From Ilex aquifolium (taxonomy: Eukaryota; Streptophyta; Magnoliopsida; Aquifoliales; Aquifoliaceae), in contig OX637393.1 in assembly GCA_951799425.1 (NCBI GenBank), forward strand, positions 22,113,744-22,177,743: a stretch of DNA of 64,000 bases. The letters run 5' to 3'. The notes beneath the pieces were generated by a model. That model was not told where the DNA came from. It did no database searches and was given only the letters and a program-made list of their open reading frames with translations. Made by a program: the position numbers and the translations under genes. Positions 9,172-51,510 of this stretch are shown here, in pieces (position 1 is the stretch's first letter; each line of letters begins with the position of its first letter).

Positions 9172-10426
9172 CTACTCATCCTCCTCCTCATCTCCACTCC
9201 CCTCCTCATCACTCTCGTACTCACTACCCTCCTCATCATCGGAGTCATCATCGTGGGAGCCCTCCACCTCAACAATAGTAGAGGCCATAGGGGCAGAGGT
9301 GGAGGGTCCAGCAGTAGGAGGCAGAGGCACATCAGGGATCGGCTCTCCCGGGAAGGTTTGCTAGTATATCCTCATCATCATTAGGGATAGCTGATGCATA
9401 GTCCTGCCTAGGTCATCCATCCTACTCTTCATAGCATCCAAGCGCTGAGAAACTGTATGGGGCGAAGTAGTGGAGGATGGCCCAGCAGTGGATGGCTCAG
9501 GTCTCGGTGCTCTGGCTCTCTCGCCCCCACTCGTTGTTGTCCTCTTGCTGCTACCAGACTTCCCGATAGCTCCAAACTCCGGGGGTAGCAACACATCGGA
9601 GCCATATGCCTTGACCTTAGAATGATAGCACAAACTTATGACCAAATTGGCAAATGGGAGATTCACCTTCGGCTTGCTAGCCTTGGCGAACTCCTTCATG
9701 AAGTCCCAGATCATCCAAGCCACATCCATCTGCTTCCCCGTCATAAATGCATGGAGGAGGGTGAGCTTCTCAAGGTTTGGGGTCTTCTCCGTACCCCGGG
9801 GAGTCAAATTAAAGTGCAAAACCTTGTTCACGACCCCATATGAGTGCTTGAGGGCTCCGACTTGAATTTTCCCTTTGAATTGGGTCGGATCCTCATATGT
9901 CATTTGCACATATTCTGGGAGTGATTTTCTCCCTTGGACATTTTGTGGATACACTGGGGTATTAGGAGGAGACCTCTGGTACTTCATCAAAGTCGCTATC
10001 AAGTCTGGGCTAATCTCAAAGACCTTCCCTCTCACATTGGTCTTGAGTATGCAAAGGTCCTCGTCTATGACCGGCTCAAACCATATCCAAATACCATGCC
10101 CCTCAATCACCCTCACAACCTTGTCATTCGGCCCGAGGTTGGACATGTCCACATGACGCTCGCACGTCACATTCTTCTCATCAATGTTCTTCGCGCGAGC
10201 ATCATTTTTTTTGCTTTTTCCTCCTCTCCCCACCCTCTCCACTAGGCCCCATCTCTGTCCTCTTGTGGGAGCTCGTGCCCGCGGGTTGTGGAGAACTCGG
10301 TCCAGTTTGTTTGGTACGGACCATGTAAATGAAAAATGGCCCAAGGGCCACGAAGGGGAGAAACCACGTCCAAAATTCCTTGAAAATATCAAATGGAACA
10401 TAAGCATGCTTACCTAGACAAGCCAT
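9172..10426 (-). pseudogene. Third ORF of element C (putative plant transposon protein / env-like)
   Basis: Homologous to the third ORFs at 49746-51020 and 30031-31117. The core resembles the putative plant transposon protein family (PF20167): a VRGKVFEISPDLIATLM motif, then a helical stretch with LLHAFMTGKQMDVAWMIWD. From the first ATG in the leader (10426, context G at -3 and G at +4) the protein opens with about 34 residues including a hydrophobic segment (EFWTWFLPFVALGPFFIY), then MVRTKQT at 10324. The tail is Ser/Pro-rich and ends in an acidic run (EGSEYESDEEGSGDEEEDE). Two lesions: a frameshift in an eight-A run near 10206-10213, and an in-frame TAG at about 9361-9363 where the E copy has a Gln codon. 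Role unknown; env is a traditional label only. Confidence 0.7.
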
Positions 10427-10592: not shown

Positions 10593-10790
10593 TTTTTATA
10601 GAGAGGAGAGAGCTTGAGAGGTCGAGATTAGAGGGGAAAGTGAAAGGTTTCCCAAAAAGAAACCGACTTAAAACCCTCGTTTTCTGGGCAAAACCTATCG
10701 GTAGAATGTTCAAAACCTACCGGTAGGTTTTGTGCACTGGAAAATTCCTACCGGTAGGTTTTGACAGAAACCTACAAGTAGGTTTTCACA
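10593..10790 (-). promoter_or_regulatory. Internal promoter-like block of element C with CTACCGGTAG palindromes
   Basis: About 170 bases upstream of the first ATG of the third ORF lies TATAAAAA (10593-10600 on minus). Further upstream, 10690-10790, are four copies of a palindrome with core CTACCGGTAG inside AAACC...GGTTT, one imperfect. The same palindromes, with the same TTCTGGGCAAAACCTA lead-in, occur in the 5' LTR of this element at 16436-16550. Between the TATA box and 10426 there is no ATG on the element strand. Promoter function is inferred. Confidence 0.6.
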
Positions 10791-15285: not shown

Positions 15286-16788
15286 TGCTTGACTTAATGT
15301 TACCCTAATCTCCAAACACGAACCCTCGAATGTGTTTATGGATTTTGTGTGTAGGTGAGTGCCACTCTCCCTCGGGTTCGATGCTAGAAATGGGGCAAAA
15401 CGTGCGTGTGAATGAAAATGTGTGTGTGCAAAAGTGCTCCTCAAGTGAAGAGAGGCTTGCAATTGTCATGTTTTACTTGGAATGGGTATTCCAAGGTCGT
15501 CTCCTTAGTGGTGAAGGTGATTTTGTAAAGGAATGAAAAGTGTAAAATCTTGTAGTTGTGTGTTTTGGTGAGTGCATTTGTGATAAAAATGCAATGAAAA
15601 CAAGGTTGGCTAATCTGAAGAGGTTATTCCAATGAGAATGCCTTGTGACAAGTCGACGGTGTATCAAGAGCCCACAACCATGTCCGCACTCAACCTAGTC
15701 CAAACACCTTACACTACGAGGAGGAATAAAGGAGAGTTGATTTAGCATAACCAAGAGGAAATCTCCTTTGGATTAGCCAACTAAAAGCTTAACTACTCAT
15801 AATGGATGCAAAGACATGCACAATGTAAAAAGACATGGTGAAGAAATAAAGATTTAAACTTGTATTAATGCAAAAAGAAGTTAACTACAAAGACAAATTC
15901 ACTTCATACCCAAAAGTAAAGCTTGGAAGGAAAAACCCAATTGTAAACATGGTAGATACAAGAATGTGTAACTAAACTTGAAATACACTTGAAATAAAGG
16001 AGAGTAAAGTGCAAGAAGTAAAGATTACAAGTGATTTAAAGCTTACTACAACTGAAATGGAGAAGAAAATGCAAAAACCTAACTTTCTCTCTCTAGAACT
16101 TCATCTTCTTTCTTGGGACCTTCTCTCTCTAAAAGCTTGTGTAGCTGAATAATGGTGTAAGAATGCTTCATTTTCGTCCATCACCCCCTAGGGTCTGTGT
16201 GAGCTGACTTCCCAGCATGGGGAAGGGGTTGGACACTTACACAGGCAAGAACAGACCATGCCTGCAACCCCACCACGCTCTTTCATTCACTCTCTTCCTC
16301 TTCCATGCTCTTCCATTCAAAGTCAGATTCTAGGTGTAGGGAGGCATGCCTGTATGTAGAATATGTTAGGGTATGTGTGGGAGAAGCAGAGGTGGGCCCA
16401 CGAAGCAATTAGAGAAGAGATTGCAGCTTTCTGGCGTTTCTGGGCAAAACCTACTGGTAGATCGATGACAAAACCTACCAGTAGGTTTTGGCAGGTGCAG
16501 CAGTAGAAGATTTCCAGTGTGCAAAACTTACCGGTAGGTTTTCACCTATTTTGGCTTTTTCTTGATTTCTTGCTATTTGGAGCCACCTATTAAGTCTCCC
16601 CTCCTTCTTTATTGTCTTTAAGCACCTGATAGAAGGCTTAATACGCGCCATTACCTACTCATTACCTACAATCACACAAAAGTCCATTAGTTGATAGATT
16701 AAATGCAATTTCTCCTATTTTCTCCACAAAAGCAAGTATAAAATGGGTGCAATAGAGACAAATGGTGTGCAATATTCTATGCTCATCA
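15286..16788 (-). repeat. 5' LTR of element C
   Basis: 1503 bases, TGCTTGAC on the left to GCTCATCA on the right (plus strand), so TGATGAGC...GTCAAGCA on the element strand. U3 (right side) carries palindromes with core CTACCGGTAG at about 16446-16545, several with single mismatches. The conserved LTR box lies at 15435-15510. Flank on the right is GGCAT, followed by the tail of another LTR. Confidence 0.85.
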
Positions 16789-18766: not shown

Positions 18767-20704
18767 TGATTAGCACTTAAAATTAGCATATTACTATGCC
18801 ATTTTAAGACTAATTGTACTTTGATGGAGTTTAAGTGATGTCATTTCAGGCCCTAAACTGAACAAAGACTCAAGAACAACAAGTACCACACTTGAATGCA
18901 ACACCAGCACATTAGAGCACAAAATTGGAAAAGCTTGGAGCACAGCTAGAACTTTCGAACGCCAACTCACGTTCGAACGGCCACATTGAACTGTAGCAGA
19001 CTCAACTTCTAAGAGAATGCGTGTTGCAGTTAGGAAAGAAGACTGTGAAGCTCTGAGACACTTGAGTGTCACGTTCGAACGCCAACTCACGTTCGAACGT
19101 GCACTTGAGTTAATTGAAGACCAGACTACTGCATAGAGTTGGAACTGAACTTCACAGAAGACCAACAGATCACTCGAGTGAGAGGGTCAAAACACATCTG
19201 GCGTTCGAACGCCCTTAGTGCAAAAACAGAAGAAACGTTCGAACGGCAGTCAACGTTCGAACGACCATAATGCAAAAATAGAAACAACGTTCGAACGCCA
19301 ACTCACGTTCGAACGTTCTCCACAGACTGGCAGCAGAGTAGTTGGTTTTTTACTTGGACTTGGGCAGCATAAACTTTTCCTTCACCTCCTTTTGTCTCCT
19401 CCTCTTGCCTATAAATACTCCCATTATTGGAGAGCTAGGGGAGCCAAGTAGAAGGGTTGATGGAGGCTTAGACTCCCACTCACATTGTAGATTCAAGCTT
19501 ACATTTTCTTTGTATGAAGTTTTTATTTTAGAGATTAGTTTGGCTTTAGTCCAACATCTCCTTGTTTTTTTATAAGAGTAGTTTTATGTTTATGCTTTCA
19601 TTTACATGCAGAGAAGGGAGTTAGTTCATCTTTTGGTTGAGGAAGCAACCCTCCATTTCTTGGTTGAGGAAGCCACCCTCCAAATGTGACTAGTTTTCTT
19701 CTACTTTTATTGTTTATGTACTTCACTTCCATTGCTTGAGCTTCTTTCTTTCTTAGAGGAGTGAAACTCTTCCACTTTTCTAGAGCTTTACCAAAGCCGT
19801 GAAGGGGGGAACGTGATTCACTCAATCTTTGTTAAAGATTGGCTCCTTGTTCATTGTTATTTTATCTTTTAAGACTTCTACTTGGAGGGATGAGCATCAC
19901 CCACTTTTCTAGCTTTACCAAAGCCATGAAGAGTGAGTAGTTTCTCATTCACTCTTTAGTAAGAGGAGAAGGGCATGTATAAGTTATCCGGGAATTATAT
20001 TTGTGCTTTGTTCTAATGCTTAACGTTTATTGCTCCTTGTTTATTGGATGATTGATTACATCTAGCAAAGCTAAGGTACTTTGTATAATCGTGGGTTCTT
20101 TCTATGACACGGATGACTCTTGCATAGAAAGACTCATCGGTTCAAGGCAAGTACCCCGGCTAGATCTTCAGGACTACCCTTCAATCCTCCCTTTTATTGT
20201 GTTTCATTTAAAGAATGGAATATTAATGTCATGATTGGATGTCTTGTAGAAACACTTGCTTGTTTGTAGGGGTTAAGTCTTGGCACAGAAAATTTTTGTA
20301 AACTTCTAGAAAAACATCGGAATTATGTTCTTAATTCTCACAGTCCATATTTATCTTCCGATTAACTTGTTGTTGACACGGGAGTTAATTGAGTTATCAA
20401 GCACAAGTATAATAAACGGGATAATTAACTACATGTCCAGATCCTTGAACTAAAGAGTGACCCTTTTCATTAGCATTTATCTCCTGTTTTGTTAAGAAAA
20501 TTCTCTTGGAAAGAATCTTATATTTTGTCCAGGAAATCTCACACCTCTCAACAAATCTCAAAGGTTACAAACAATAGGTCTCCACCACTGCTTATCTCAA
20601 AAATACCAACAACAGTTCCCTGTGGATTCGACTCTGGACTCAAACCGGATTATTACTACAGCTTGACCGCATGCACTTGGGTGTACACATTTCGGATCAA
20701 GTCA
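18767..20704 (+). repeat. 5' LTR of element A
   Basis: TGATTAGCACTTAAAATTAG to CGGATCAAGTCA. Nearly the same as 35042-36980, and as the solo copies at 5880-7770 and 47682-49583. Small open frames inside it recur in all copies, including the 60- to 80-residue ones, but lack coding features. Confidence 0.95.
18955..19417 (+). promoter_or_regulatory. U3 control region of LTR A: TTCGAA palindromes and TATA box
   Basis: Nine copies of a TTCGAA-core palindrome, mostly CGTTCGAACG, lie between 18955 and 19317. They are spaced irregularly, often as pairs about 10 bases apart. A TATA box, TATAAATA, follows at 19410-19417. The same arrangement is at 35225-35692 in the 3' LTR and in the solo copies (TATA at 6469 and 48306). 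The TATA box marks the probable start of the genomic RNA about 30 bases downstream, near the GAGAGCTAGGGGAGCC block. Confidence 0.7.
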
Positions 20705-20728: not shown

Positions 20729-20933
20729 ACTTTGAAAGGTGTTTTAAGGTAAAAGGTAAAAAGACCTTCATCTTTGTATAAATTCTTTGGTTTACTGTAA
20801 ATAACTTTGTTTTATTGTCTTTATAACTGAGGACACTCCTCACTATCAAAATTTGCCGGCAGAATCTTGTGAGTCTTTGAATCAGCCTGAACCAAATTCA
20901 CCTAGATCAGTAGCAGACTCTTGTGAGGGTAAT

Positions 20934-21781
20934 ATGGCAAATAATGAAAGAAATGGAGAAGTCCCTATGAGAGAGGAGGAAGTGCCTAACAATCGAACTT
21001 TGCGGGATTACTTAAATCCCACAAGAAACAGTGTCCTTTCTTGTTTTTTATTTCCTGAAAATGCTCCCCCCTTTACTATAAAGCCGGGGACAGTGCAGTT
21101 ATTACCCCTGTTTCATGGATTAGATGCAGAGAATCCATATCTGCATATAAAAGATTTTGAGGAAGTGTGTGGAACATTTCAAGACAATTCTGAATTAGCC
21201 AAAATGAAACTGTTTTCTTGCTCTTTTAGGGATAGAGCTAAACAATGGCTAAATTCTTTAAAAGCTTTTTCGATACCTAACTGGCAGGCATTGCAAAATG
21301 AATTTTTTAGAAAGTTTTTTCCTTTGCACCGCACAAATGCATTAAAAAGGCAAATCATGAATTTTGCGGTTAAAGACGGAGAAACTTTTTATCAAAGTTG
21401 GGAGAGATTCAAAAATCTGCTCCAATCCTGTCCACATCACGCTTTTGAGAATTGGACTTTGGTAGGATTTTTCTATGACTCCTTACCCTCTAGACTACGT
21501 CAGTTTGTCGAAATGATGGCCCAAGGAGAATTTATGGGAAAAAGTCCGGAGGAGGCATTCAATTTCTTTGACACCATATCTGACAGTTCTCAGATGTGGG
21601 ACTCAGCCTCTCCTACCACTGTAGAAGCCAGACCATCTACTTCCCAAGGACGTAAATATGTCTTGAGAGAAGATGATGACTTGAGAGCAAAAATTTCTAC
21701 GTTGTCTCGAAAGCTTGAAGCTTTAGAGATGAAGAAAGTCCATCAAGTTGATGTCCCACCATCCCAACGTTCAAAGAGGTC
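20934..21781 (+). pseudogene. gag of element A, frameshifted at the zinc knuckle
   Basis: The frame opens upstream of 20853 without an ATG; the first ATG is 20934 (MANNERNGE), and an ATA at 20823 may be a lost initiator. Typical Athila gag blocks follow: RTLRDYLNPTRNSVLSCFL, ENPYLHIKDFEEV, FSCSFRDRAKQWLNSL, FFRKFFPLHRTNALKRQI, SWERFKNLLQSCPHH, GFFYDSLPSRLRQFVE, and GKSPEEAFNFFDTI. Near 21745-21755 a deletion removes most of the CCHC zinc knuckle and shifts the frame; only its last Cys and CPTIPTFKEV remain in the following frame. The RNA-binding knuckle is therefore gone. Gag forms the particle that encloses the RNA. Confidence 0.85.
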
Positions 21782-23554
21782 TTGTTGGAACAGACACATG
21801 CAATTTCCAACTTCAACAAACCTTACTCCAACCCATATTCTGAAACATATAATCCAGGGTGGCGAGACCACCCTAACTTCAGTTGGAAGAACACACAACC
21901 AATACCCATGAACCAACAACAAGGCTCATACCCACCACCTCAAGGACCTCTTGCATATCAACCATACCAACCACCACAAAAGAGGAGCCTTGAGGACACA
22001 TTGAATCAGTTCATGCAAAGCCAAATAAATTATAACAATAATTCCACACAGGCTTTCACTGATTTCAAAACTCGGACCACTCAATCTTTTGAGGATCTTA
22101 AAAGCCACATCCAAAAGTTGACTCAATCCATGGTCACACACGAAAATGGCAAGTTTCCTGCCCAACCAAAGCAACCACAAGGCCAATTCCATGTAGGGAA
22201 CCCTTCAACAACAGGAAACACACAAGACGAAGCCCAAGTTGTCACTACACTAAGAAGTGGCAAGGTGATTGACAAGAACATTAGAGACATACTCATCCCA
22301 AAGCCAAGGCCTGAGTCAATCCCAGTCAACCCATCATCTGAGCCTGAACCAATTGAGAATGAACTTGAAGAAGAACCTGAGCCTATGATTAAACAAGAGC
22401 CAGAACCTTTCGAGGAAAAAGAACATTCGTGTTCCGTTCCCGCTCCTTTCCCTCATAGACTCAAAACCAAACAGAAGTTGAAAAATCAGTCTAAAATTTA
22501 CGAGCTTTTTAAGCAAGTAAATATCAACATCCCACTTCTGGACCCAATCAAACAAGTCCCATCTTATGCCAAGTTTCTAAAAGACTTGTGCACAATCAAG
22601 AGAGGTCAGAATGTTCAAAAAAGAGCCCTCCTAACAGAACAAGTCAGTGCCCTTCTTCAACATAAAACCCTTCCAAAATACAAAAACCCAGGGTGTCCGA
22701 CTGTGTCATGTATCATTGGAAACTTCAGGATTGAACAAGCACTGTTAGACCTTAGACCCAGTGTTAATTTGCTACCCTACTCTGTCTATCAGCAGTTGGG
22801 TCTGGGTGAACTCAAACCCACTTGTGTCACACTTCAGTTGGCCGACAGATCTATCAAAACCCCTAGAGGCATTGTTGAAGATGTGCTTGTCCAAGTGGAC
22901 AATTTTGTCTTCCCTGTTGACTTCATTGTTCTGGATACTCAACCAGCAATACATTCGGAGAACCAAATTCCCGTCATTCTTAGTCGACCATTTCTAGCAA
23001 CTTCCAATGCACTAATCAATTGCAGGAATGGAGTCATGAAATTAACTTTTGGGAATATGACTCTCGAATTGAACATTTTCAATATTGCTAAGCATCCAGA
23101 AAAAGAAAAGGAAGAAAGGGAAATAAACTCCATTGAATCTTTGATACAGGAACATCTGAATGATACATTCTGTGAGGACCCTACTGAATCTTCTCTGTTA
23201 GAGCTCATCTCATCTGAAACAATAGATGATGACCCAAATCCACAAAGTTGCCCTACTCATGCTGTTGAGACATGGGCCCCCAAATTCGAAGAGATTTCAC
23301 CAAGTGGCACAAAGCCAATCTCATCAAGTGATAGGCCACCAAAGCCTGAATTGAAACCTCTCACATCTGACCTCAAATATGCATTCTTAGGAAATGACGA
23401 ATCATACCCAGTGGTAATTTCATCTAAACTCACAGACTTGCAAGAGTCTAAATTGATTGAAGTTCTTCAAAGCCATAAAAGCACCATTGGATGGACCATC
23501 ACTGACTTGAAAGATATAAGCCCGTTAATCTGTAATCATGCTATATACCTTTAA
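21782..23554 (+). pseudogene. gag C-terminus and protease of element A
   Basis: Continues gag in a second frame (YNPGWRDHPNFSWK, then a Pro/Gln-rich stretch), the linker [14 protein letters not shown], and the retropepsin domain from about 22690 (ALLDL...NLLPYSVYQQLGLGELKPT, LADRSIKTPRGIVEDVLVQV, VILSRPFLATSNALI). The residues that follow the catalytic Asp (22748-22750) are Leu-Arg-Pro, whereas element D has Leu-Gly-Ala at the matching place, so the active-site turn is destroyed. The frame ends in an in-frame TAA at 23552-23554; RT follows in the same frame. Confidence 0.85.
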
Positions 23555-25009
23555 GAGGATTCAAAACCCTCTCGTCAAATGCAGCGACGACTAAACCCTC
23601 ACATGAAGGAAGTAGTGAGAATTGAGGTACTCAAGCTTTTAGATGCGGGGATAATCTTCCCCATCTCTGATAGCAAGTGGGTTAGTCCAACCCAAGTTGT
23701 GCCAAAAAAGTCTGGGGTCACAGTGGTCAAAAATGATGCAAATGAACTAGTACCAACTCGAGTCGTCACAGGATGGCGAATGTGCATTGATTATCGAAAA
23801 TTTAATTTGGTAACTAGAAAAGATCATTTTCCTCTTCCATTTCTTGACCAAGTCCTAGAGAGAATTGCAGGCCATGTATTTTACTGTTTCCTAGATGGGT
23901 ATTCAGGGTATAACCAAATTGAGATGGCACTAGATGATCAGGAGAAAACAACCTTCACATGCCCCTTTGGCACCTTTACATTTAAAAGGATGCCATTTGG
24001 ACTTTGTAACGCTCGTGCAACATTCCAAAAATATATGCTAAGCTTGTTCAGTGATATGGTTGAAAATTTTTTGGAAGTATTCATGGATAATTTTTCTGTA
24101 TATGGTGATTCCTTTGAATTGTGTCTGACCAATCTGGAGAAAGTGCTAACCAGATGTAAGGAAGCCAATCTAGTGCTTAATTGGGAAAAATGCCATTTTA
24201 TGGTAACACAAGGCATTGTCCTTGGTCACATTGTGTCGTCTGAAGGCATGAAAGTTGACAAGGCAAAAATAGATCTGATTGGAAATTTGCCTGCCCCTAA
24301 GACTGTAAAAGATGTCCGATCTTTCCTAGGGCATGCATGTTTTTACAGGAGATTCATAAAAGATTTCAGTACCATAGCAAAACCCATGTGTCACCTTCTA
24401 AGTCAGGATGTAATCTTTGATTGGAATGAAGCATGTCAAAAAGCCTTTGACAAGCTAAAAGACATGTTAATTTCTGCCCCAATAATGCAACCCCCTGACT
24501 GGAATCTACCCTTTGAACTAATGTGTGACGCAAGTGATTATGCTGTAGGTGCTGTATTGGGACAAAGAAAAGATAAGAGACCCCATGTGATTTACTATGC
24601 AAGCAAAACTTTGAATGATGCCCAAATGAATTATTCAACAACTGAAAAAGAATTGTTTGCTGTAGTTTTTGCATTAGAAAAATTTCGTTCTTATCTTGTT
24701 GGTTCTTCTGTTATTGTATTCACTGACCATGCAGCCCTAAAATTCTTGCTCACAAAAAAGGACGCCAAGCCAATACTCTTGAGATGGATACTCTTGCTCC
24801 AAGAGTTTGATCTTGTTATCAAGGACAAGAAAGGCGTCGAGAATGTGGTGGCAGATCATCTGTCCAGACTAACATATGAATTTCATGAGAATGGACTGCC
24901 AATCAATGAGAAATTCCCCGATGAACAATTGTTCATGATTGACAAGACACCATGGTACGCAGATATTGCCAACTATCTACTAATACCTTCCCTCCATCCT
25001 TTACCATGA
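23555..25009 (+). pseudogene. Reverse transcriptase and RNase H of element A
   Basis: In the same frame as the protease after the TAA. RT motifs in order: [60 protein letters not shown] (first catalytic Asp), [13 protein letters not shown], and FMDN at 24083-24091, where the family has two Asp (FMDD/YxDD type). The second catalytic Asp is thus Asn, a single G to A change. RNase H follows ([40 protein letters not shown]), with its acidic residues present. The frame is lost near 24985, and the track stops at 25009. The RT is predicted inactive. Confidence 0.9.
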
Positions 25010-26256
25010 TGGACAAAAAGAAATTTCTGAGGGAGGTTCGTAACTTCTTTTGGGAAGATCCCTACGTATTCAAGTACTGTAAGGATCAAATCATAAGACG
25101 TTGCATCACCGCTCATGAAAGTAGTCAGGTAATAACATTTTGTCATTCTGAAGCATGTGGTGGTCATTTTTCATCAAGAAAAATCGCTGCAAAAATATTG
25201 CAGTGTGGATTTTACTGGCCCACACTTTTCAAAGATGTCCATGCCTTTTGTTTAACTTGTGATAGATGCCAAAGGTTGGGAAACATTTCTAAAAGAAATA
25301 TGATGCCCTTAAACCCCATTCTAGTAATTGAAATTTTTGACTGTTGGGGCATCGATTTTATGGGACCATTTCCCCCTTCCTTTGGCTATCTATACATTTT
25401 AGTGGCTGTAGACTATGTATCCAAATGGGTTGAAGCAATTCCATGCCGAAACAATGATCACCAAACAGTGATCAAGTTTTTGAAAGAAAATATTTTGTCC
25501 CGGTTTGGAATTCCAAAATCAATCATAAGTGATGGGGGTGCTCATTTTTGCAATCGTCCCTTCTGGAATTTGATGAAAAAATACTTGATTTTTCACAAAA
25601 TTGCAACCCCTTATCATCCACAGACCAGTGGACAAGCTGAGTTAGCTAATCGGGAGATCAAATTAATTTTGGAAAAAACGGTGAATCCAGACCACAAAGA
25701 TTGATCGTTAAGACTAACTGATGCACTCTGGGCGTACCGTACTACTTTTAAAACAATTTTAGGCATGTCTCCTTATCGATTAGTCTATGGAAAGCCATGT
25801 CACTTGCCTGTGGAATTGGAACATAGGGCATATTGGGCCATTAAAGCAATGAATTTTAACTTGGACAAGGCTGGACTAGCAAGGAAACTTCAGATAAATG
25901 AATTGGAGGAATTGAGAAATGAAGCATATGAAAACGCTAAGATTGCTAAAACTAGGATGAAAATTTTTCATGACAAAAACATTGTGTGGAAATCTTTTGA
26001 GCTTTCTCAAAAGGTCTTGTTATTTAATTCAAGACTCCGCCTCTTTCTTGGTAAATTGAAGCCAATATGGACTGGGCCTTACATTGTCAAAAAGGTGTTT
26101 AGACATGGAGCAGTTGAAGTGAAAAATCCATCAAACGGTAATATCTTTACTGTTAATGGTCAGCGGTTGAAACCATTTTTGGAGGATTTTGTTAAAAATG
26201 TGGAAACCATTCTTTTAATGGAACCAGAAAACTCCTCCGAGAATCGTGCCTGCTGA
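24985..26256 (+). pseudogene. Integrase of element A
   Basis: After a frameshift near 24985: [16 protein letters not shown], an HHCC zinc-binding region ([11 protein letters not shown], then [11 protein letters not shown]), and the catalytic core with all three acidic residues ([15 protein letters not shown], and the Glu in [11 protein letters not shown]). An in-frame TGA at 25702-25704 replaces the Trp found there in C and E. The frame continues with [20 protein letters not shown] and the C-terminal domain [18 protein letters not shown], to the stop at 26254-26256. No chromodomain is visible, as usual in Athila. Its role would be inserting the DNA copy. Confidence 0.88.
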
Positions 26257-29489: not shown

Positions 29490-29815
29490 GATTCAACGTT
29501 CAAACGCCAGGTGACGTTCGAACGTCAGCCGCTTACAGTACCCAGCCTCTGATGAAGCTTCTGATGAAACTTCAAAGTACTGGGAGCTCAGTCCGTTCAA
29601 ATGTCAATAGATCGTTCAAACGAGATTAACGTTCGAACGCCAATAGAACGTTCGAACGAAGAGAACCTACAGTACTTTGACCTCTGATAAAACTCAAAAG
29701 TACTGAGAGCTCCTTACGTTCGAACGCCAAACCACGTTCGAACGATCTGCTTAAAATCCTTCTACACACGTTCGAACGTTACTAACGCTCGAACGTCACG
29801 ACTCATGCTATAAAA
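29490..29815 (+). promoter_or_regulatory. Internal promoter-like block of element A with TTCGAA palindromes
   Basis: Ten palindrome-like sites, seven with an intact TCGAA core (mostly CGTTCGAACG), lie between 29493 and 29797. TATAAAA follows at 29809-29815. From there to the ATG at 30031 the leader has no ATG at all. This repeats the arrangement of the LTR U3 of the same element: palindrome array, then TATA box. It strongly suggests a separate transcript for the third ORF. Confidence 0.65.
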
Positions 29816-30030
29816 TCCTGGTTCGTCTTCTTCATTTCAAAACCCTCCAAAACCCTTGAAAACCCCAAAAACCCTTGGTGACTCTTCACTACCCAGACCC
29901 CAAAACACCTTTCATTCTCCATTTTTACATAAAATCAACCCTCCCAAGACCATTCCCATATCAAAAACCTCCATTTTCACAAAGAAATTCAAGATTTCAA
30001 AGCCCTAAAAACTCAAAAATCGAAACCACC

Positions 30031-31117
30031 ATGCCAAGAGTCAAGCTTCCTGCCAGGCGCAACCCAAACACCCAGGAGCCCAATTTCATCGAGGAGGTGG
30101 TGGAAGTACGAGAAGGAAGGCCACCACTCACGCTAAGATACGACAAGACCCAGTTCCCCACAGCTTTGAAAGCTGACAGGTACGACAATTTTTACCAAAA
30201 ACATGTTGTGGTGTGTGTGAGAGATGTAGTTTTGACTGATTTTGTTGAATTGGGGATAATGGCGAAGATGGAGAGAAGGGGTTGGAAGTTGTATTTGCAA
30301 AATGGCGGAGATGCCGTAATTGACTTGGTGCGGGAGTTTTACTCCAACGCGGAAATAGTCAATGGAGCATTGAGGAGCTATGTGAGGGGGATCCACATCG
30401 AGGTGGACGAGAATTACATAAGAGAGATTAGGCAAGAAGTGACTCAGGTCCCAAGTCCCACCTATCCCCCAAGAAAGAACGTAGCAATGAATGTTGTGGG
30501 AAGGGAACTGACTGGAGTACCTAATTTTTCTTGGACTCGGAAGAAACTTTTTTGACAAGGGGAGCTAACTGACAAATACAAAATGTTAAACTTGATTGCA
30601 GTGTCAAACTTTGCCCCAATTGGAAGGAAAAATGAAATTCTACCCGACATGGCCCGACTTTTGTATGATATTGGAAAAGGGCAAAGTATTGACCTCCCCT
30701 CCCTAGTTTTAACTGAGATGAAGAAAGGGTGTGACGTGAAGCGGAATTCACTTCCCTTCGGCACCCTAGTGACTGAGATATGCAAAGACCATGGGGTAAG
30801 GGTGAAGCCAGAGATGGAAATTCAAAAGCCAATGGGGCCACTGAACAAGGCTTCCTTCCGGAGAAGCCAAAGTCATAGTGGCGGCCCAGCGTCAAGACAA
30901 TAAGAGCCCCCTGCCCACGGAGTGCATGAGGTGCAAGATGGGCTTGATGAGATGGAGGAGAGAGAGAGAGAGATATCAGCCACAGGAGGCAGGGCCTAGC
31001 ACCAGCTCCCGACATTCTTTACGAGACATCATGCTTAGCATTGAAGCTAAGCAGGATGAGATTCTGAGGCTTCTGAGGGGTGGACCTGGTGGAGATGGTG
31101 GGCATGGAGGAGAGTGA
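30031..31117 (+). pseudogene. Third ORF of element A (putative plant transposon protein / env-like)
   Basis: I chose 30031 because it is the first ATG after the TATA box and has a strong context (ACCACCATGCC). The protein opens MPRVKLPARRNPN; then LTLRYDKTQFPTALKADRYDNFY, VREFYSNAEIVNGALRSYVRG (PF20167-like core) and a second half with LPDMARLLYDIGKGQSIDLPS. A TGA at 30553-30555 and a frameshift near 30890 interrupt it. After the shift come GPSTSSRHSLRDIMLSIEAKQDEILRLL (coiled-coil-like) and a Gly-rich end. Unlike C and E it lacks the hydrophobic N-terminal segment and acidic tail. Function unknown; membrane-protein features of a viral envelope are not visible here. Confidence 0.7.
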
Positions 31118-32724: not shown

Positions 32725-34827
32725 TGTAACACCCCAAAACACACCCTGGACGGCATTACATTCTAAAACATTCACATCATGAGAGCACTAAAATAATCCA
32801 TCAATAAATAAGACTTCATAAAGTCATCCATAAAATTTACAAGATCATCCCAAAAGAATAGGCCCATTTTGGCCTTTACATTCCAAAATTTATTTAAAGT
32901 TGCACAGCGGAATAAACAAAAGAAAACTAGGCTTTACAAGGTTCAAAATAAATATCCTAGTCTAGAACAAAAGAAAGTGTCGCTCTAGGCGTCCACCTCG
33001 GGATCCACATTCCCGTCCAGTGGAGTCTCCCAAGTAGCGGGCTCCTCGACCCCTACGTCCTCCTCTTGTAGGAAATCTGAAAAATGTTAGCGGTAGGGGG
33101 GTGAGCACAAAGCTCTGTAGAACAATTCTCTCAAACCCATACAAGGTTTAGAAAAGCATTCAAAACGGTCGGTCTCATTTCACAAATATCATACATAACT
33201 TTTGAAGTAAAGCAGTGGCATTTAATAGATCTCAAGTTTACGGAACAACAATAATTGAATGAGTAAATGAAACCACTATACATTTAGCAAAACATTTCCA
33301 AATATAATTCAGTCCTCCATTCACAATTTCGAACGATTCTTTCGGTAGGTGGCATACTTTAGGGTAACCTCCACCTCCCGTTTAGGTCATCTTTGATTCT
33401 CAAGCATCCTTACAAGGAACCTCTTGAGAATGAGTGAGCATCCTTACAAGGAACCTCTCACAATCATTACATGGCTTCCCAAGCATCCTTACAAGGAACC
33501 TCTTGGGAAGGGGGTGAGCATCCTTACAAGGAACCTCTCACAAATCACTTCATGGCTTCCCAAGCATCCTTACAAGGAACCTCTTGGGAAGGGGTGAGTA
33601 TCCTTACAAGGAACCTCTCATAATTGGGTATCACAAGCAACCCAACCAAGAATACAATCCCAACATTTATCTCCATTTACAATCATTTATCCAAAATCTC
33701 CAAATTTATGCATGTGACATTTTCCATAACAACCAAGAAATTACATGAGATCACAATAACATTATTTTGCTATTCAATATCAAACACTAAGGTGGTGATG
33801 GTTAGAACAAGGAAAATGTAAAGAGGAAAGATTCATTTTTCTTAAAACTAGGGTTTGAGAATGAGAAATGGACCTTTAATGGTTACCCAACTACTACAAT
33901 GTTTAAAACATGGTAATAAATGCAAGAGGATCAAGAATCAAGTAAATAATAGCAAGTGTATATGATTTTTAACCAAAAGAATACATATAATTTAACCCTA
34001 GTCTCAATGTAAGTGAGTGAGAGAAAACCCCTACCTTGATGTTCTTGAAGATCTAGGGTTTGATCTTGAATCACTCTTAAATCCTTTGTTTTCCCCTTTT
34101 GATCTTGTGTTTTCTCCTTCTTTATTCTTTTCTTAGGGCTCTAAGATGTTTGGGGTGAGAGTGGGATGGAAGAATGGGTCAAATGAGGCTTAAAAGGGTG
34201 TTTTAAAACACCAAAATCCCGACTTTTTCGATGCCAAGCTTCGGGCGTACCGGTACGCGTACCAGTACGGTTTGGCTACAGGAGTTCGGCGTACCGGTAC
34301 GCGTACCGGTACGGTTGGACTGCCAGATTTTTGTTCCAACTTCCAGCGCGATTTTGACCCATTTAGAGGTCGAATTGGAAAATTTGCATGAGACACACTT
34401 TTGTAGCCCTAGATGTCTACTATCTACTGTACAAATTTCAGATCAATTGGATATAAGGGTAAAAAGTTATGACCAAAATACTAGAAGGTGTCCCAACTCC
34501 TTTTTACCCAAATTTTCTCTAAGTGTGTTTTCACTCCGGAATACTTCCTAGCTTCCAATACACCTCATATTACCTCTCCCAAGGTTGTTCGACCTTCCGG
34601 ATTCAATGGACACCTTATTTTGTCCTAAAAATATTTAGAAATTCATCTAGTCACCCTTTCCAAGTTTAAACATCTTCGACACGTAACTTCCCAATCAAAT
34701 TGTCTCCATAGCATTTATCCTACGGTTTATTCTTATGTCACTACATATATCTACATCTTTACAAATATTATTTACTGTATATATATATCTCTATCAATAT
34801 ATATAAAAGAAAATTCGGGGTGTTACA
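32725..34827. mobile_element. Solo LTR, type F, TSD AATTA
   Basis: Begins TGTAACACCCC and ends GGGGTGTTACA, 2103 bases, flanked by AATTA at 32720-32724 and 34828-34832. The ends are typical of another plant LTR group. It contains a tandem repeat (33405-33625) and GTACCGGTAC palindromes (34246-34312) closely matching those of LTR B. It inserted into element A. Orientation cannot be set because the two ends are mutual inverted repeats and no internal region is present. Confidence 0.92.
33405..33625. repeat. Tandem repeat in LTR F
   Basis: About six copies of GCATCCTTACAAGGAACCTC, alternating with two different spacers (one with TTGGGAAGG, one with TCACAATCA), giving a roughly 65-base higher unit. 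Confidence 0.8.
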
Positions 34828-35041: not shown

Positions 35042-36980
35042 TGATTAGCACTTAAAATTAGCATATTACTATGCCATTTTAAGACTAATTGTACTTTGAT
35101 GGAGTTTAAGTGATGTCATTCCAGGCCCTAAACTGAACAAAGACTCAAGAACAACAAGTATCACACTTGAATGCAACACCAGCACATTAGAGCACAAAAT
35201 TGGAAAAGCTTGGAGCACAACCAGAACGTTCGAACGCCAATTCACGTTCGAACGGCCACATTGAACTGTAGCAGACTCAACTGCTAAGAGAAGGCGTGTT
35301 GCAGTTAGGAAAGAATACTGTGAAGCTCTGAGGCACTTGAGTGTCACGTTCAAATGCCAACTCACGTTCGAACGTGCACTTGAGTTGATTGAAGACCAAA
35401 CTACTGCATAGAGTTGGAACTGAACTTCATAGAAGACCAACAGATCACTCGAGTGAGAGGGTCAGAACACATCTGGCATTCGAACGCCCTTAGTGAAAAA
35501 ACAGAAGAAACGTTCGAACGGCAGTCAACGTTCGAACGACCATAAAGCAAAAACAGAAAAAACGTTCGAACGACAACTCACGTTCGAACGTTCTCCACAG
35601 ACTGACAGCAGAGTAGTTGGTTTTTCACTTGGACTTGGGCGGCATACACTATTCCTTCACCTCCTCTTGTCTCCTCTTCTTGCCTATAAATACTCCCATT
35701 GTCAGAGAGCTAGGGGAGCCAAGTAGAAGGGTTAATGGAGCTTAGACTCCCACTCACATTGTAGATTCAAGCTTACATTTTCTTTGTATGAAGTTTTTAT
35801 TTTAGAGATTAGTGTGGTTTTAGTCCAACATCTCCTTGTTTGTTGTAAGAGTAGTTTTATGTTTATGATTTCATTTACATGCATAGAAGAGAGTTAGTTC
35901 ATCTTTTGGTTGAGGAAGCAACCCTCCATTTCTTAGTTGAGGAAGCCACCCTCCAAATGTGACTAGCTTTCTTCTACTTTTATTGTTTATGTACTTCACT
36001 TCCATTGCTTGAGCTTCTTTCTTTCTTAGAGGAGTGAAACTCTTCCACTTTTCTAGAGCTTTACCAAAGCCGTGAAGTGTATAACGTGATTCACTCAATC
36101 TTTGTTAAAGATTGGCTCCTTGTTCATTGTTATTTTATCTTTTAAGTCTTCTACTTGGAGGGATGAGCATCACCCACTTTTCTAACTTTACCAAAGTCAT
36201 GAAGAGTGAGTAGTTTCTCATTCACTCTTTAGTAAGAGGAGAAGGGCATGTATAAGTTATCCGGGAATTATATTTGTGCTATGTTCTAATGCTTAACGTT
36301 TATTTCTCCTTGTTTATTGGATGATTGATTGCATCTAGCAAAGCTAAGGTACTTTGTATAATCGTGGGTTCTTTCTATGACATGGATGACTCTTGCATAG
36401 AAAGACTCATCGGTTCAAGGCAAGTACCCCGGCTAGATCTTCAGGACTACCCTTCAATCCTCCCCCTTATTGTGCTTCATTTAAAGAATGGAATATTAAT
36501 GTCATGATTGGATGTCTTGTAGAAACACTTGCTTGTTTGTAGACGGGTTAAGTCTCGGCACAGACAATTCTTGTAAACTTCTAGAAAGACATCGGAATCA
36601 TGTTCTTAATTCTCACAGTCCATCTTTATCTTCCGATTAACTTGCTGTTGACACGGGAGTTAATTGATTTATCAAGCACAAGTATAATAAACCGGATAAT
36701 TAACTACATGTCCAGATCCTTGAACTAAAGAGTGACCCTATTTCATTAGCATTTATCTCATGTTTTGTTAAGAAAATTCTCTTGGAAAGAATCTTATATT
36801 CTGTCCAGGAAATCTCACACCTCTCAACAAATCTCAAAGGTTACAAACAATAGGTCTCCACCACGGCTTATCTCAAAAATACCAACAACAGTTCCTTGTG
36901 GATTCGACTCCGGACTCAAATCGGATTATTACTACAGCTTGACCGCCTGCACTTGGGTGTACACATTTCGGATCAAGTCA
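35042..36980 (+). repeat. 3' LTR of element A
   Basis: 1939 bases, closely matching the 5' LTR, with the same palindromes (35225-35592) and TATA box (35685-35692). Followed by the target duplication AAGGG. Confidence 0.95.
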
Positions 36981-40339: not shown

Positions 40340-40376
40340 AATACCCCCAAACTTAAATGTTTGCTTGTCCTCAAGC
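40340..40376 (-). other. 3' polypurine tract with upstream hairpin, element D
   Basis: Element strand: GCTTG / CAAGC stem around AGGA, then AAACATTTAAGTTTGGGGGTATT next to the LTR, split here as ATTTAAGTT and TGGGGGTATT. Confidence 0.75.
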
Positions 40377-45631: not shown

Positions 45632-45646
45632 ATGTATGTTGTGGAC

Positions 45647-45797: not shown

Positions 45798-47507
45798 TGC
45801 TTGACTTATTCCGTCAACCCTAATCTCCGAGCATGATTTCGGTTGTGTGTATGTGGCATATATGATTAGGTGAGTGTCACTTTCCCTCGGATATCATGCA
45901 AGAAATGGGTTGAACGTGTGTGTGGATGAAAATGTGTGCGTGTGTACAAAAGTGCTCCCCAAGCGTAGAGAGACTTTCGAGTATCGTGTTTTACTTGGAA
46001 TGGGTATTCCAAGTTCGTCTCCTCAGGGAAGGAAGATGAATTGTGTGAAGGTGATTTGATAAAAATGAAAAGTGTAAAAATCTTGTGAATTGGTGTTTTG
46101 GTGAGTGAAGATTGGTTGTAGAAATGCAATAAAAACAAGGTTGGCTAATCCGAAGAGGTCATTCCAATGGGAATGTCAAATCAACTCAATTCATTCAACC
46201 AATGGTGCCTAGGTGCTTGATTGATTCGTAGGAAGTGAGGGACTAATGTGAAATGTAGGCTCAAGCATACCTTGTGACAAGTCTACGGTGCATCAAGAGC
46301 CCACAACCACGTCCGCACTCAACGTAGTCAAACCAAGCACTTTACACTACGAGATAGAATGGAGAAGAGTTGATTTAGCATACCCAAGAGGAAGTTCCCC
46401 TCGAATTAGCCAACATAAAGCTTAGCTACTCATGGTTGAAGTAAAATCATTCATGATGTATAGAGACATGTAGAAGAAATGGAAATGAAAATGAGTTGAA
46501 AATGAAACTTAGAACATATATTAAAGCTAGGAAGAAGTAAACTACAAAGAGAAATTCATTTCATACCAAAATGAAGAAGTTGCAGAGTATACCCAGCAAA
46601 AAATGTAAGAGTGCAAGAACAATAGATTAAACTCGATTACACTTGAAATAAAGGAGATTACAATGCAAGAAATAAAGATTAAAAGAGTCTCACATCTTGT
46701 TACAAGTGAAATTGGTGAAGAAATTGCAAAAATCTAAGCTTTCTCTCTCTAAAACTATGTCTGCTACCTTGGGAGCTTCTCTCTCTAAAAAGTGCTGAAA
46801 CATGGTCTGTAGTTGGTAGTCTTTCCATTTTCGTCCATGAGAGGTATATGTTCTATGTGCTACAGAGATTCAATGATTTGGGGAGGTTTGGAAGCCTGCA
46901 CAAGCAAGGTGCAGACATGCTTGCAGTCCCCCTTGTCCTTGACCAACTTCCCTCTTTCTCTCTTTTCTTCCAAATCCAGACTCTTGTGTAAGAATGACAT
47001 GTTTGCAGGTAGATGATGTCAGGGTAGGTGTGGGAGAAGTGTAGCTGGCCCCCCCCCAAGCAATTGGAGTTGAGTTGCAGGTTGTTTGACATTTCTAAGC
47101 AAAACCTTCCGGAAGGTCGATGCAAACATTCCGGAAGGTTTAGGCAGGAACAGGGAAAACAACAATCCAGTGTCTCAAACCTTCCAGAAGGTTTTGGCAG
47201 GGGTTGAGGCAGTTCAAAGTGCAAACCTTTTGGAAGGTTTATGACGAAACCTTCCGGAAGGTTTTCACCAGAATTGTCTTTTTCTTGATTTATTCACCTT
47301 CCTAGCCTCCCTTTAAGCTACCCCCTCATCTCCATTGACTTTAAGCACTACGATGGGGGCTTGACTCAAGCCATAATCAACTCTTTACCTACAATCACAC
47401 AACAACATCATTAATTGGTTTCTTAAACACATTTCTCCCCAATTCCACAACAAAAGTATAAAATAGTATAAAAGACATACATAATATGCAATATTCTATG
47501 CTAATCA
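45798..47507 (-). repeat. Left (3') LTR of element E
   Basis: TGCTTGACTT to GCTAATCA. Palindromes of CTTCCGGAAG type lie at 47104-47268 (six sites, some imperfect) in the U3 part. Shares the conserved box at 45950-46030 with the other B/C/E LTRs. Confidence 0.85.
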
Positions 47508-47681: not shown

Positions 47682-49583
47682 TGATTAGTACTTAAAATTA
47701 GCATTTTACTATGTCTTTTTGAGACTAATTGTACTTTGATAGAGTTTAGGTGATGACATTTAAGGTCTTAAAGTGAACAAGGACTCAAGAACAACAAATA
47801 TCCATTTGAGTGTAACACCTGCACATTAGGGAACAAAATTGGAGAAGCTTGGAGCACGCCAAGAACGTTCGAACACCAACTCATGTTCGAACGTCCACTT
47901 GAACTGTGAGCAGACTTGACTGCTGAGAGAAGGCGTGTTGCAGCCAAGAAGGAACACTCTGAGGCTTTGAGGCACTTGAGTATCACGTTCGAACGTCCAC
48001 TTGAGTTGATTGAGGACCAGAATACTACATAGAGTGTGGAAATGAACTTCACAGAAGACCACATGCCACTTGAGTGAGAAGGTCAGACCACATCTGGCGT
48101 TCGAACACCCATACAGCAAAGACAGAAGAAACGTTCGAACGCCAGACAACGTTCGAACGCCCATAAAGCAAAAACATATACAACGTTCGAACGCCAACTC
48201 ACGTTCAAACGTTCTCCACAGATTGGCTGCAGAGTAGTTGGTTTTTCACTTGGACTTGGGTGACATACACTATTCCTTCACCCCCACTTGTCTCCTCCTC
48301 TTGCCTATAAATACTCCCATTGTTGGAGAGCTCAAGGAGACCAAGTAGAGAGGTTGATGGAGGCTTAGAATCCCACTCATATTATAGAATTAGCTTACAT
48401 TTCCTTGTATGAAGTAGTTGTTCTAGAGATTAGTTTGGTTTTAGTTCAACATCTCTTAGCTTGTTATAAAAGTAGTTTTATGCTTATGCTTTCACTTACA
48501 TGCATAGAGGGAGATAGCTTACCTTTGGTTGTGGATCACCCTCCAAAAGTGACTATCTTTCTTCTACTTTTAATTTGTGTATCATTCACTTCCATTGCTT
48601 GAGCTTCTTTCTTCCCTTAGAGGAGTGAAACTCTTCCACTTTTCTAGAGCTTCGCCAAAGCCATGAAGGGTGGAACGTGATTCACTCATTCTTTGTCGAA
48701 GATCGGCTCCCTGTTTAGTGTGCTTTGCTTTGTGATCCCTCTACTTGGAGGAATGAGCATCACTCACTTTTCTTGCTTTACCAAAGCCATGAAGAGTGAG
48801 TAGTTTCTTATTCACTCTTTAGTAAAAGGAGAAGGGCATGTATAAATTATCCGGACGTTATATTTGTGCAATTTTGATTATGCTTAATTCTTTATATTCC
48901 CCATGCTTATTGAATGATTGATTGCATCTAGCAAAGCTAAGGTACTTTGTATAACCAAGAGTTCTTTCTATAACATAGATAACTCTTGTATAGAAAGACT
49001 CGTTGGTTCAAGGCAAGTACCCCGGCTAGATCTTCATGACTACCCTTCAATCTTCACCATTATTGTGCTTCAATTAAAGAGTGGAAATGGAACATTAATG
49101 TCATGATTGGATGTCTTATAGAAACACTTGTTTGTTTGTAGACGGGTTAAGTCTCGGCACAGACAATTCTTGTAAACTTCTAGAAAGACATTGGAATCAT
49201 GTTCTTAATTCTCTTAATCCACCTTTATCTTCCGATTAACCTGTTGTTGACACGGGGGTTAGTTGAGTTATCAAGCACAAGTGTAACAAACCGGATAATT
49301 AACTACATGTCCAGATCCTTGAACTAAAGAGTGACTCTTTTACATTAGATCTTATTTCATATTTTGTTTAGAAAATTCTCTTAGAAAGAATCTTATATTC
49401 TGTCCCGGAAATCTCACACCTCACACAACTTCAAATCTTAAGGGTTACAATCAATAGGTCTCCACCACTGCTTACCCCAAAACACCAAGAAGAGTTCCCA
49501 GTGGATTCGACTCCGGACTCAAATCGGATTATTACTACAGCTTGACCGCTTGCACTTGGGTGTACGCATTTCGGATCAAGTCA
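47682..49583 (+). mobile_element. Solo LTR, type A, TSD GTACT
   Basis: TGATTAGTAC to GGATCAAGTCA, 1902 bases, flanked by GTACT at 47677-47681 and 49584-49588. TTCGAA palindromes at about 47861-48215, TATA box at 48306-48313. Inserted into element E in opposite orientation. It is more diverged from the LTRs of element A than they are from each other. Confidence 0.93.
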
Positions 49584-49745: not shown

Positions 49746-51020
49746 CTACTGGTCGTCCTTGTCTCCATCATCCTCCTCCTCACCATCATCATCACCATCG
49801 TTCCCAGACTCACCCTCTTCACTACCCTCCTCCTCGTCATCATCGTCGTCATCGTCGGAGCCTCCCATCTCAACAACCGTAGAAGGTATGGGAATGGAGG
49901 TAGATGGTCCAGCTGGAGGCGGCGGAGGTCTACCAGGGATGGGCATGCCCGGGAAAGTGTGTTGAAATAGCCTCGTCACCATCAATGACAGTCCATGCAT
50001 CGTGGTCTCCAATGCATCCAAACACTACGACACGGTGCAGGCTGGGGCAGAAGTGGAAGGTGCAGAGGATAATGGCCCAGCAGAAGATGGCTCCATTCCC
50101 GAGGCACTGGCTCTCTCACCCCCAGTCTTCGCTGCCCTCTTGTTACTACTTGACTTTCCAATTGCACCGGTCTCAGGGGGCAGCAGCACATCATGTGTGT
50201 AGGACTTGACCTTGCAATGACTGCACATCCTGGTGACAAGATTGGCAAAGAGGAGATTCGCCTTCAGCTTTGCAGCCTGAGCAAACTCCTTCATCTCCTC
50301 CCAGATCAAAAGCGCCACATCTAACACCTTACCTGGCATAAAAGCATGGATTAAGGCTAGCTTCTCCACATTCGGGTTCTTCTCGGACCCCCTAGACATC
50401 AAATTGTAGTGGAGGACTTTGTTCATGACCCCGTAGGAATGCTTGAGGCCCCCGACTAGAGTTGTCCCCTTGAATTTGGTCGAGTCCTCGTAGGTGAGCT
50501 GGACATACTCAGATAGGGTCTTAATCCCTCCGACATTGTGTGGGTACACTGGGGTGTTGGGGGGCGGGCTCTGATACTTCATCAAAGTGGCAATCAAATC
50601 GGGGGTCACATCAAAGGTCTTCCCCCTCACATTTGTCCTAAGGATTGAAGCATCCTCGCCTAACACCATCAGTTTCCTATAAAACTCCCTACACAATGCT
50701 AAGTTATAGCCACTAATTGGCTCAAACCAAATCCCTAATCCATGCCCTTCTATAATCCTCACCACATCATTGTTCGGACCAAGTGTGATATTGTCCACAA
50801 ACCGCTCGCAAGTCACATTTTTCTCATTTATCCTTTGCTTGCGAGCATCATGTCTCACTTTCATCCTCCTTTCCTCCCTGTCCCTGCTACTCGGGCCCTC
50901 CACATTCCTCTTGTGGGAGCTAGTGCCCGCGGGTGGTGGGGTATCCGGACTCGTTCGCTTGGTGCGGGCCATGAAGATCAACAGTGCCCCCAAGCCAAAA
51001 AACATCAAAACCCACATCAC
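49746..51020 (-). pseudogene. Third ORF of element E (putative plant transposon protein / env-like)
   Basis: Frame 51020 to 49746 with one in-frame TAG (50022-50024), where the C copy has CAG. The start is uncertain: an ATG at 51020 gives a hydrophobic lead (MMWVLMFFGLGALLIF) and the ATG at 50972 gives MARTKRTSPDTPPPAG. A further ATG at 51074 aligns with the first ATG of C, but a TAG follows. The core has CREFYRKLMVLGEDASILRT, NVRGKTFDVTPDLIATLMKY, LIHAFMPGKVLDVALLIWEE. The tail is Ser/Pro-rich, then a long acidic run (GGSDDDDDDDEEEGSEEGE and on). Best preserved of the three copies. Function unknown; the basic start and acidic end suggest a nucleic-acid- or chromatin-related protein as much as an envelope. 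Confidence 0.72.
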
Positions 51021-51349: not shown

Positions 51350-51510
51350 TTCTGGGCAAGACCTTCCAGAAGGTCGATGAAAACCTTCCGAAAGGTTTTG
51401 CTCACTACTGAGGCAAAAGCTGTCCAGTAGTGAAAACCTTCCGAAAGGTCAATGCAAACCTTTCGGAAGGTTTTGCACACTGGACAAAACCTTCCGGAAG
51501 GTTTTGCCTT
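51350..51510 (-). promoter_or_regulatory. Internal promoter-like block of element E with CTTCCGGAAG palindromes
   Basis: Five sites of CTTCCGGAAG type, two or three perfect or with one mismatch, at 51362-51505, upstream of the third ORF. They start with TTCTGGGCAA and CTTCC, then GAAGGTCGATG, exactly as in the left LTR at 47090-47130. The place where C has its TATA box is mutated here (CCCTCTAACC). This suggests the promoter is decayed. Confidence 0.55.

Follow-up and report, generated by a model that had tools for sequence, protein, structure and literature searches.

Why would a plant retroelement keep palindromes of one type both in its LTR and ahead of its third ORF, and what would this say about the function and expression of the env-like third gene? 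The question is raised by a 64,000-nucleotide stretch of Ilex aquifolium DNA (hereafter the window; positions 22113744-22177743 of contig OX637393.1, from an assembly of 800 Mb in 103 contigs), most of which is made up of nested LTR elements, Athila-like Ty3/gypsy elements among them. An earlier note on this DNA described such palindromes in three elements (A, C, and E) and proposed that a common binding factor or gene conversion keeps the two places alike. Here, we find the architecture to be genuine and well supported in sequence, and it is best read as regulatory.

Palindrome arrays in LTRs and third-ORF leaders

Element A is complete in outline, with both LTRs, gag, reverse transcriptase (RT)/RNase H, integrase, and a third ORF (Table 1). 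It is Athila-like Ty3/gypsy in its Pfam domain order, i.e., gag and then RT-RNase H ahead of integrase, and in having a sense third ORF of the PF20167 type between pol and the 3′ LTR, and TTGGCGCCATTGCCGG, which follows its left LTR, resembles an Athila/Tat primer site. Elements C and E, both on the minus strand, have kept the third ORF, its leader, and LTRs; their PF20167 matches score over the Pfam cut-off, and that of A scores under it (35.1 of 45 bits, E=1.6e-8).

Table 1 Coordinates of elements, ORFs, palindrome arrays, and TATA boxes in the window
Feature	Positions	Strand	Remarks
Element A 5′ LTR	18767..20704	+	LTR ends and 5-bp target repeat AAGGG read; 96% identical to right LTR
Element A 3′ LTR	35042..36980	+	own palindrome array 35227-35590
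A gag ORF (PF03732)	20853..21911	+	Pfam match
A RT/RNase H, then integrase	23579..25704	+	Ty3/gypsy order, Pfam matches
A third ORF (PF20167 region)	29860..31117	+	interrupted by stop codons and frameshifts
C third ORF, open stretch (PF20167)	9361..10413	-	frame broken in N-terminal part
E third ORF, open stretch (PF20167)	50025..51020	-	Pfam match
LTR B, A type	5880..7770	+	within LTR G1, adjoining G1 palindromes; without a recognised target repeat
Solo LTR D, A type	47682..49583	+	target repeat GTACT; inserted in element E
LTR K	32725..34827	-	ends TGTAACACCCC/GGGGTGTTACA unlike other LTRs; target repeat AATTA; GTACCGGTAC cassette 34247-34312
A 5′ LTR U3 array	18952..19315	+	9 CGTTCGAACG sites (8 exact); spacings 18,102,18,112,34,18,34,18
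A third-ORF leader array	29497..29795	+	9 CGTTCGAACG sites (6 exact, 3 one-mismatch); spacings 18,98,17,19,68,18,34,17
C 5′ LTR array	16450..16538	-	three CCTA....TAGG sites; LTR start 16788
C third-ORF leader array	10694..10782	-	four CCTA....TAGG sites
E 3′ (left) LTR array	47105..47261	-	five CCTT....AAGG sites; LTR start 47507
E third-ORF leader array	51362..51501	-	five CCTT....AAGG sites
LTR F (62699 to about 60786) array	62292..62450	-	five CCTA....TAGG sites, i.e., C type
A LTR TATA box TATAAATA	19410..19417	+	94 nt past last palindrome
A leader TATA box TATAAAA	29809..29815	+	13 nt past last palindrome

Searching the window by tblastn with seven third-ORF queries (E up to 1e-4) found three third-ORF copies, and each of the three is preceded by a CpG-centred palindrome array of its own LTR's type. 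For A, the reported presence of one palindrome in both LTR U3 and third-ORF leader was borne out: 31 exact CGTTCGAACG matches (shuffle mean 0.00, 100 shuffles) all fall in A-type LTRs or the A leader, being divided among A's own LTRs (8 and 7), LTR B (6), solo LTR D (4), and the leader (6), where three one-mismatch sites occur as well. The same held for E, in which all five left-LTR and all five leader sites read CCTT....AAGG. For C, the motif CCTA....TAGG does recur at both places (three LTR and four leader sites), but the exact 10-mer CTACCGGTAG that had been reported is absent from the C LTR, whose three sites are variants one or two bases off the 12-mer. All sites of C thus differ from those of E by one symmetric base pair (A in 14/14 half-sites of C, T in 20/20 of E). 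The lead-in said to be shared between LTR and leader in C and E proved exact, as TTCTGGGCAA, in the C leader, the C LTR, and the E leader (also in the right LTR F), whereas the sequence read by eye in the left LTR of E is TTCTAAGCAA. The lead-in TTGCCCAGAA and the pair spacer CATCGACC are present in both LTR and leader of C and E.

These C/E counts come from a scan that presupposed no palindrome type. With one mismatch allowed, near-matches number 7 for the C type (0.02 expected) and 10 for the E type (0.16 expected), one of the latter in an LTR fragment at 3859, and palindromic 10-mers that contain CG number 65 in the window (shuffle mean 8.1, 40 shuffles). Genome-wide, AACGTTCGAACGCC has 3314 + 3261 matches and its reversed control none. 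The palindrome cores found here (GTTCGAAC, TACCGGTA, and TTCCGGAA) are CCGG- or TTCGAA-centred, and the site exceeds 10 bp, the best C/E copies forming the 20-bp palindrome AAAACCTNCCGGNAGGTTTT.

LTRs J, G1, G2, and K have palindromes of a fourth type, GTACCGGTAC, and no leader of this type was found within the window. Its 51-bp cassette in LTR K (34247-34312) is 98% identical to that in LTR G1 (7773-7823), in families otherwise unlike; blastn-short found no other likeness outside the cassette, and palindrome cassettes may move between LTR families. Apart from the palindromes, an aligned module GTTGTAGATCTGGATGTCTTC...AAAAGTTATG is common to G1, G2, and, more weakly, K, at 7840-7980 (-), 28340-28480 (-), and 34330-34490 (+), being inverted relative to the palindromes in K.

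Where they can be aligned, the E left LTR and LTR F share just 75.6% identity, and F carries the C type; this pair was therefore not taken as one insertion. Elsewhere in the window, a separate LTR pair (39015-40340 and 44307-45632, 96% identical, gag close by) offers a natural contrast, with just TCATATATGA, once per LTR, among the recurrent palindromic 10-mers. At 3859-4554, two oppositely oriented LTR fragments join at a CCTTCCGGACGG palindrome, possibly a recombination junction.

Agreement of palindrome types across genome copies

First-look searches listed 3987 and 5697 third-ORF candidates in the genome for the A and E queries, respectively. From these, 20 of 150 listed A third-ORF places (every fourth row, 2 to 78; 73-89% identity) and 20 of 121 listed E third-ORF places (every sixth row; 65-83% identity) were fetched with their surroundings, and A, C, and E of the window were added. 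Judged by the majority of sites, LTR and leader types agree in 31 of the 32 elements with both arrays readable, though, because many loci share ancestry, these 32 pairs are not independent events. The agreement covers 18/18 pairs of the A lineage (17 fetched and A) and 13/14 of C/E (11/12 fetched, plus C and E). The earlier view, according to which each family has its own palindromes and those of one element agree, therefore stands, and the search for unmatched pairs in other elements, which had been named as its refutation, produced one exception in 32, in an element with a rearranged LTR.

In the A lineage, a CGTTCGAACG leader array is present in 20/20 fetched loci and a downstream A-type array in 17/20. 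Fourteen of these 17 downstream arrays follow an A-type LTR start (0 or 1 mismatch in 21), two lie at the usual place with the LTR start not recognised (L014, L024), and one lies farther downstream, beyond a GTACCGGTAC-type array (L027); the fetched stretches of L012, L013, and L016 contain neither a downstream A-type array nor a close LTR start. L017 contains a further A-like third ORF at 1786-2433 (-), more distantly related (56% identity), with an A-type palindrome near the expected leader.

Among the 12 fetched C/E loci with both arrays readable, nine are T/T (L030, with a single leader site, L031, L034, L035, L041, L045, L046, L048, and L049), two are A/A (L042 and L043), and one is the mismatch (L040); in L031, L035, L043, and L045 no LTR start matched the pattern, and the array was assigned to its element by position. 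Types are not everywhere pure, LTR half-sites being A/T 6/2 in L043, 9/1 in L042, and 1/11 in L046. The exceptional L040 combines a T-type leader with a GTACCGGTAC-type LTR, which begins with TGAT and runs directly into G2-like sequence and so looks rearranged or recombinant. The remaining eight loci have a leader array alone (L032, L036), an LTR array alone (L033, L044, L047), or LTR-end or PBS-like sequence where the leader is expected (L037, L038, L039, the last with an LTR remnant bearing T-type sites). With their third ORF closely behind such sequence, L037, L038, and L039 appear to be deletion forms without a leader array.

Putative internal promoters and a proposed common factor

Spacing within the arrays is regular. 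The spacing of the A leader differs from simulation at p=3.5e-5, and across the 20 A-lineage loci 94/113 leader spacings of up to 40 bp are 17-19 and 18/113 are 34, while 88/93 LTR spacings are 18 or 34, although part of the LTR regularity looks like local tandem duplication. For C/E, the commonest spacings at both places are 21-24, 30-33, and 52-53, with 43-47 in LTRs only and other values too. Close site pairs, 17-19 bp apart in the A lineage and 22-24 bp in C/E, are separated by about two helical turns, and such pairs of symmetric sites would fit cooperative dimers.

TATA boxes follow the A-lineage arrays at fixed distances. TATAWA lies within 200 nt after the array in 14 of the 16 A-lineage LTRs examined (at 94 nt in 11), and within 60 nt after the leader array in 19/20 loci (17 at 13 nt, 2 at 30 nt, none in L021), against a background of 214/3300 60-nt windows (6.5%). 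The seven leader TATA columns have a majority frequency of 1.0, vs 0.93 in the array spacers. With TATAAAA 13 nt after the array in 17/20 loci, the A-lineage leader looks like an internal promoter. None of the 14 fetched C/E-lineage leaders has TATAWA within 200 nt of the array, so that a promoter there would be argued from position and from a common CT-rich stretch (in the window, TATAAAAA at 10600 in C and none in E), which we take to be a possible TATA-less core promoter. It also speaks against an internal promoter that the prediction made for the env of Athila is of a splice acceptor instead (PMC2829016).

The earlier note knew of no description of such a system, but one exists. Sireviruses (Ty1/copia) have element-specific palindromes, nearly all of them CpG-containing, which cluster ahead of the TATA box within the LTR's upper half; nine of 13 RM elements have ENV, and their linker holds further palindrome copies, 77/79 of them upstream of ENV, for which an internal promoter was considered supported though not conclusively identified (PMC2829016, Bousios et al. 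2010). The Athila-like arrays share with these RM boxes the element-specific palindromes in the LTR upstream of a TATA box (here in the A lineage only) and before the env-like ORF, and thus are a variant of the Sirevirus arrangement rather than unprecedented. They differ in core, as none of the cores here is the CGG-CCG one reported in all Sirevirus palindromes but that of Tnd-1 (PMC2829016). The taxa differ as well, since in A (Ty3/gypsy) RT precedes integrase. In Ty1/copia pol, integrase comes before RT. New relative to the Sirevirus report, as far as its accessible parts show, are the fixed-distance TATA box, the masked-flank control, the spacing habits, the concerted one-base-pair difference, and the test of pairing across one genome's copies. 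A Sirevirus-like architecture thus recurs in Ty3/gypsy, where the fixed TATA box makes an internal promoter concrete and testable, and the presence of arrays in two superfamilies with a third gene suggests that palindromes and third gene form one regulatory circuit.

Other systems resemble this one in part. VANDALs are DNA transposons. In Arabidopsis, they carry arrays of short non-coding motifs that are specific to related families and evolve with their reader, VANC, but the VANC21 motif is not palindromic, stands in same-orientation arrays, and has a known reader protein (PMC5735166). Foamy viruses have an internal promoter 3′ of the main genes, with Tas response elements and a TATA box, and a single factor occupies this promoter first, at high affinity, and U3 most likely afterwards (PMC3798896). 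A counterpart to this second promoter may lie in the leaders here, where a TATA box follows the array in the A lineage, though not in C/E; the transactivator Tas is known there, whereas the present system is known from its DNA arrays. Gene23, an extra gene of maize Grande located between pol and the 3′ LTR, has a promoter of its own upstream, and its product is nuclear (PMC7264820), but it is antisense, whereas the third ORF here is sense and env-like in position. Closest in coding content is sunflower Athila, in which an additional PF20167 ORF 3′ of pol has a product predicted to be nuclear, with a predicted NLS, and palindrome arrays go unmentioned in the accessible parts of the report (PMC11728184). 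The openly licensed literature searched yielded no title on palindrome arrays in Athila.

We consider it reasonably probable that one dimeric, sequence-specific DNA-binding factor serves both the LTR promoter and a putative internal third-ORF promoter of the same element. The palindromes would be its binding sites at both promoters, the LTR promoter driving gag-pol and the internal one sitting before the third ORF, and whenever the specificity of the factor, or the factor used, shifted, the sites at both promoters would be selected to follow. Protein binding, activation, and a transcription start in the leader are what we infer from arrays at both places, their match in type, their shared spacings, the fixed-distance TATA box of A-lineage leaders, the limited homogenisation of flanks, and the symmetric base-pair difference between C and E. 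Whether this factor comes from the host or from the element itself divides the explanation into two sub-cases, between which we lean slightly towards a host transcription factor.

On a host origin, which we give somewhat less than an even chance, each family would have adopted, for both promoters, the palindrome of a host factor. In C, the half-site ACCTACC resembles a MYB AC element, and in E the site TTCCGGAA resembles a heat-shock element, but neither CGTTCGAACG nor GTACCGGTAC corresponds to a host motif known to us, and one symmetric base pair changed everywhere is no obvious route between host factors. More favourable are the cassette shared by the unlike LTRs K and G1 and, in Sireviruses, near-identical palindromes in low-homology elements of distant hosts, with stress-related sites found via PLACE (PMC2829016).

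Alternatively, the factor would be encoded by the element, most likely as the third-ORF protein, and would drive its own and gag-pol expression (cf. Tas) or lift silencing (cf. VANC). This is a tentative and rather unlikely reading, though the sites lie directly ahead of the third ORF, and family-specific shifts in specificity would come more easily if the binder co-evolves in the same element. The protein itself speaks on both sides. It has a basic N-terminal part, NLS-like by eye, then the PF20167 domain and, in 5/6 pieces reaching the C-terminus, an acidic end (net charge -10 to -24 in the last 40 residues; in C and E past a stop in the present DNA), and its sunflower counterpart is predicted nuclear (PMC11728184). 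Against this, the C-terminal end of A is not acidic (net -1), and a hydrophobic stretch precedes an internal MARTK/MVRTK-like start in C (10459-10205, -), E (51083-50950, -), and the database protein P0005, which is more like an env-like anchor. AlphaFold models (mean pLDDT 35.0 and 43.5) had no usable fold, a sequence search of the PDB returned no relative at E up to 1, and neither thus gave a DNA-binding fold. The cassette that unlike LTR K shares with G1 likewise argues against an element-encoded factor. The M[AV]RTK[QR]T start of C and E resembles the histone H3 tail, and two forms of the third-ORF protein possibly exist. Protein searches with the third ORF returned P0001-P0005 only; viral contigs gave no match to the paired A palindrome or the third-ORF alignment, and a single one (L001) to the C/E palindrome.

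In a bolder version, slightly more doubtful still, the third ORF would encode the element's own transactivator or anti-silencing factor, specific to its family and reading a code of palindromes at two promoters of that element; upon a shift in the protein's specificity the code would change everywhere together, ending cross-activation between related families, and the env-like gene of Athila and Sireviruses would be a regulator, not an envelope. For candidate binders of any origin, the one-base-pair difference is a ready test of specificity.

Flanking sequence and the one-base-pair difference

Gene conversion or template switching might also copy arrays between LTR and leader without any shared function, as agreement within elements and the occurrence of TTGCCCAGAA and CATCGACC at both places would allow, and Athila families recombine often (PMC2410132). 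The flanks make this improbable. With palindromes masked, LTR and leader of the same element show z of 2.1 (C), 0.9 (E), and 0.1 (A), whereas C and E compared at the same place give z 24.3, for LTR-LTR and for leader-leader. Over 14 C/E loci, z within elements ranges from 0.1 to 6.7 (median 2.2), while between elements at the same place the median is 32 for leaders (lowest -1.2) and 37 for LTRs (lowest 2.3), based on 39 random pairs each and a set of loci that includes L037, L039, and L040, which lack a proper pair. Flanks weakly alike within an element and strongly alike between elements at the same place argue against long-tract conversion or recent duplication as the cause of the match between LTR and leader. 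Some loci do show moderate similarity within the element, z exceeding 3 in 5/11 properly matched C/E loci (highest 6.7, L041), and a weak shared background therefore exists; the shared core of TTGCCCAGAA and CATCGACC hints at an old duplication from which the two arrays arose.

Conversion is further opposed by the behaviour of single sites. At apparently the same LTR position, the site is of the T type in L043 and half-and-half in L042, with all other sites in both of the A type, as expected of change site by site. The two options offered earlier thus fare unequally: selection for a common factor is the better one, because flanks and spacers have not been homogenised to a large extent, and conversion beyond about a palindrome's length finds no support, while tracts of about one palindrome may still have been converted.

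Conservation of the palindromes likewise favours a common factor, though not in every comparison. When LTR A is aligned with LTR D, palindromes show fewer differences than flanks at CpG columns (5/48 vs 28/68, p=3e-4) and at non-CpG columns (0/32 vs 219/1727, p=0.027), a difference that is not significant alone over all columns (5/80 vs 247/1795, p=0.063), and in A-lineage leaders palindromes are only slightly more conserved than spacers (0.958 vs 0.930). That the palindromes work as structures in RNA (for dimerisation or packaging) or mark hot spots of recombination or insertion, instead of being DNA sites, is very improbable, since, despite the insertion of B beside the G1 palindromes, the rearranged junction at a palindrome near 3872, and plant LTR elements reported to target palindromes (PMC6911290), it leaves TATA boxes, spacings, and the position before the third ORF unexplained. 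The U3 of the 5′ LTR, moreover, is absent from the genomic transcript, which tells against a role in RNA.

Selection for a common factor would also account for the way in which C and E differ. In the four sites alignable between them, the diagnostic base pair differs in 8/8 cells and other positions in 7/40 (p=1.7e-5). The agreement of C and E flanks place by place indicates that arrays stood at both places before the families split, and that the sites of one branch then changed alike. Co-variation of palindrome types within elements beyond phylogeny, which the earlier note named as a check, is not demonstrated by these loci, as the A/T difference maps to a single clade split and counts as about one evolutionary event, probably one switch. 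In the third-ORF tree, C, L042, and L043, all of the A type, fall into a single clade (support 0.948), which also includes the database protein P0001 and an L015 element with A-type leader sites.
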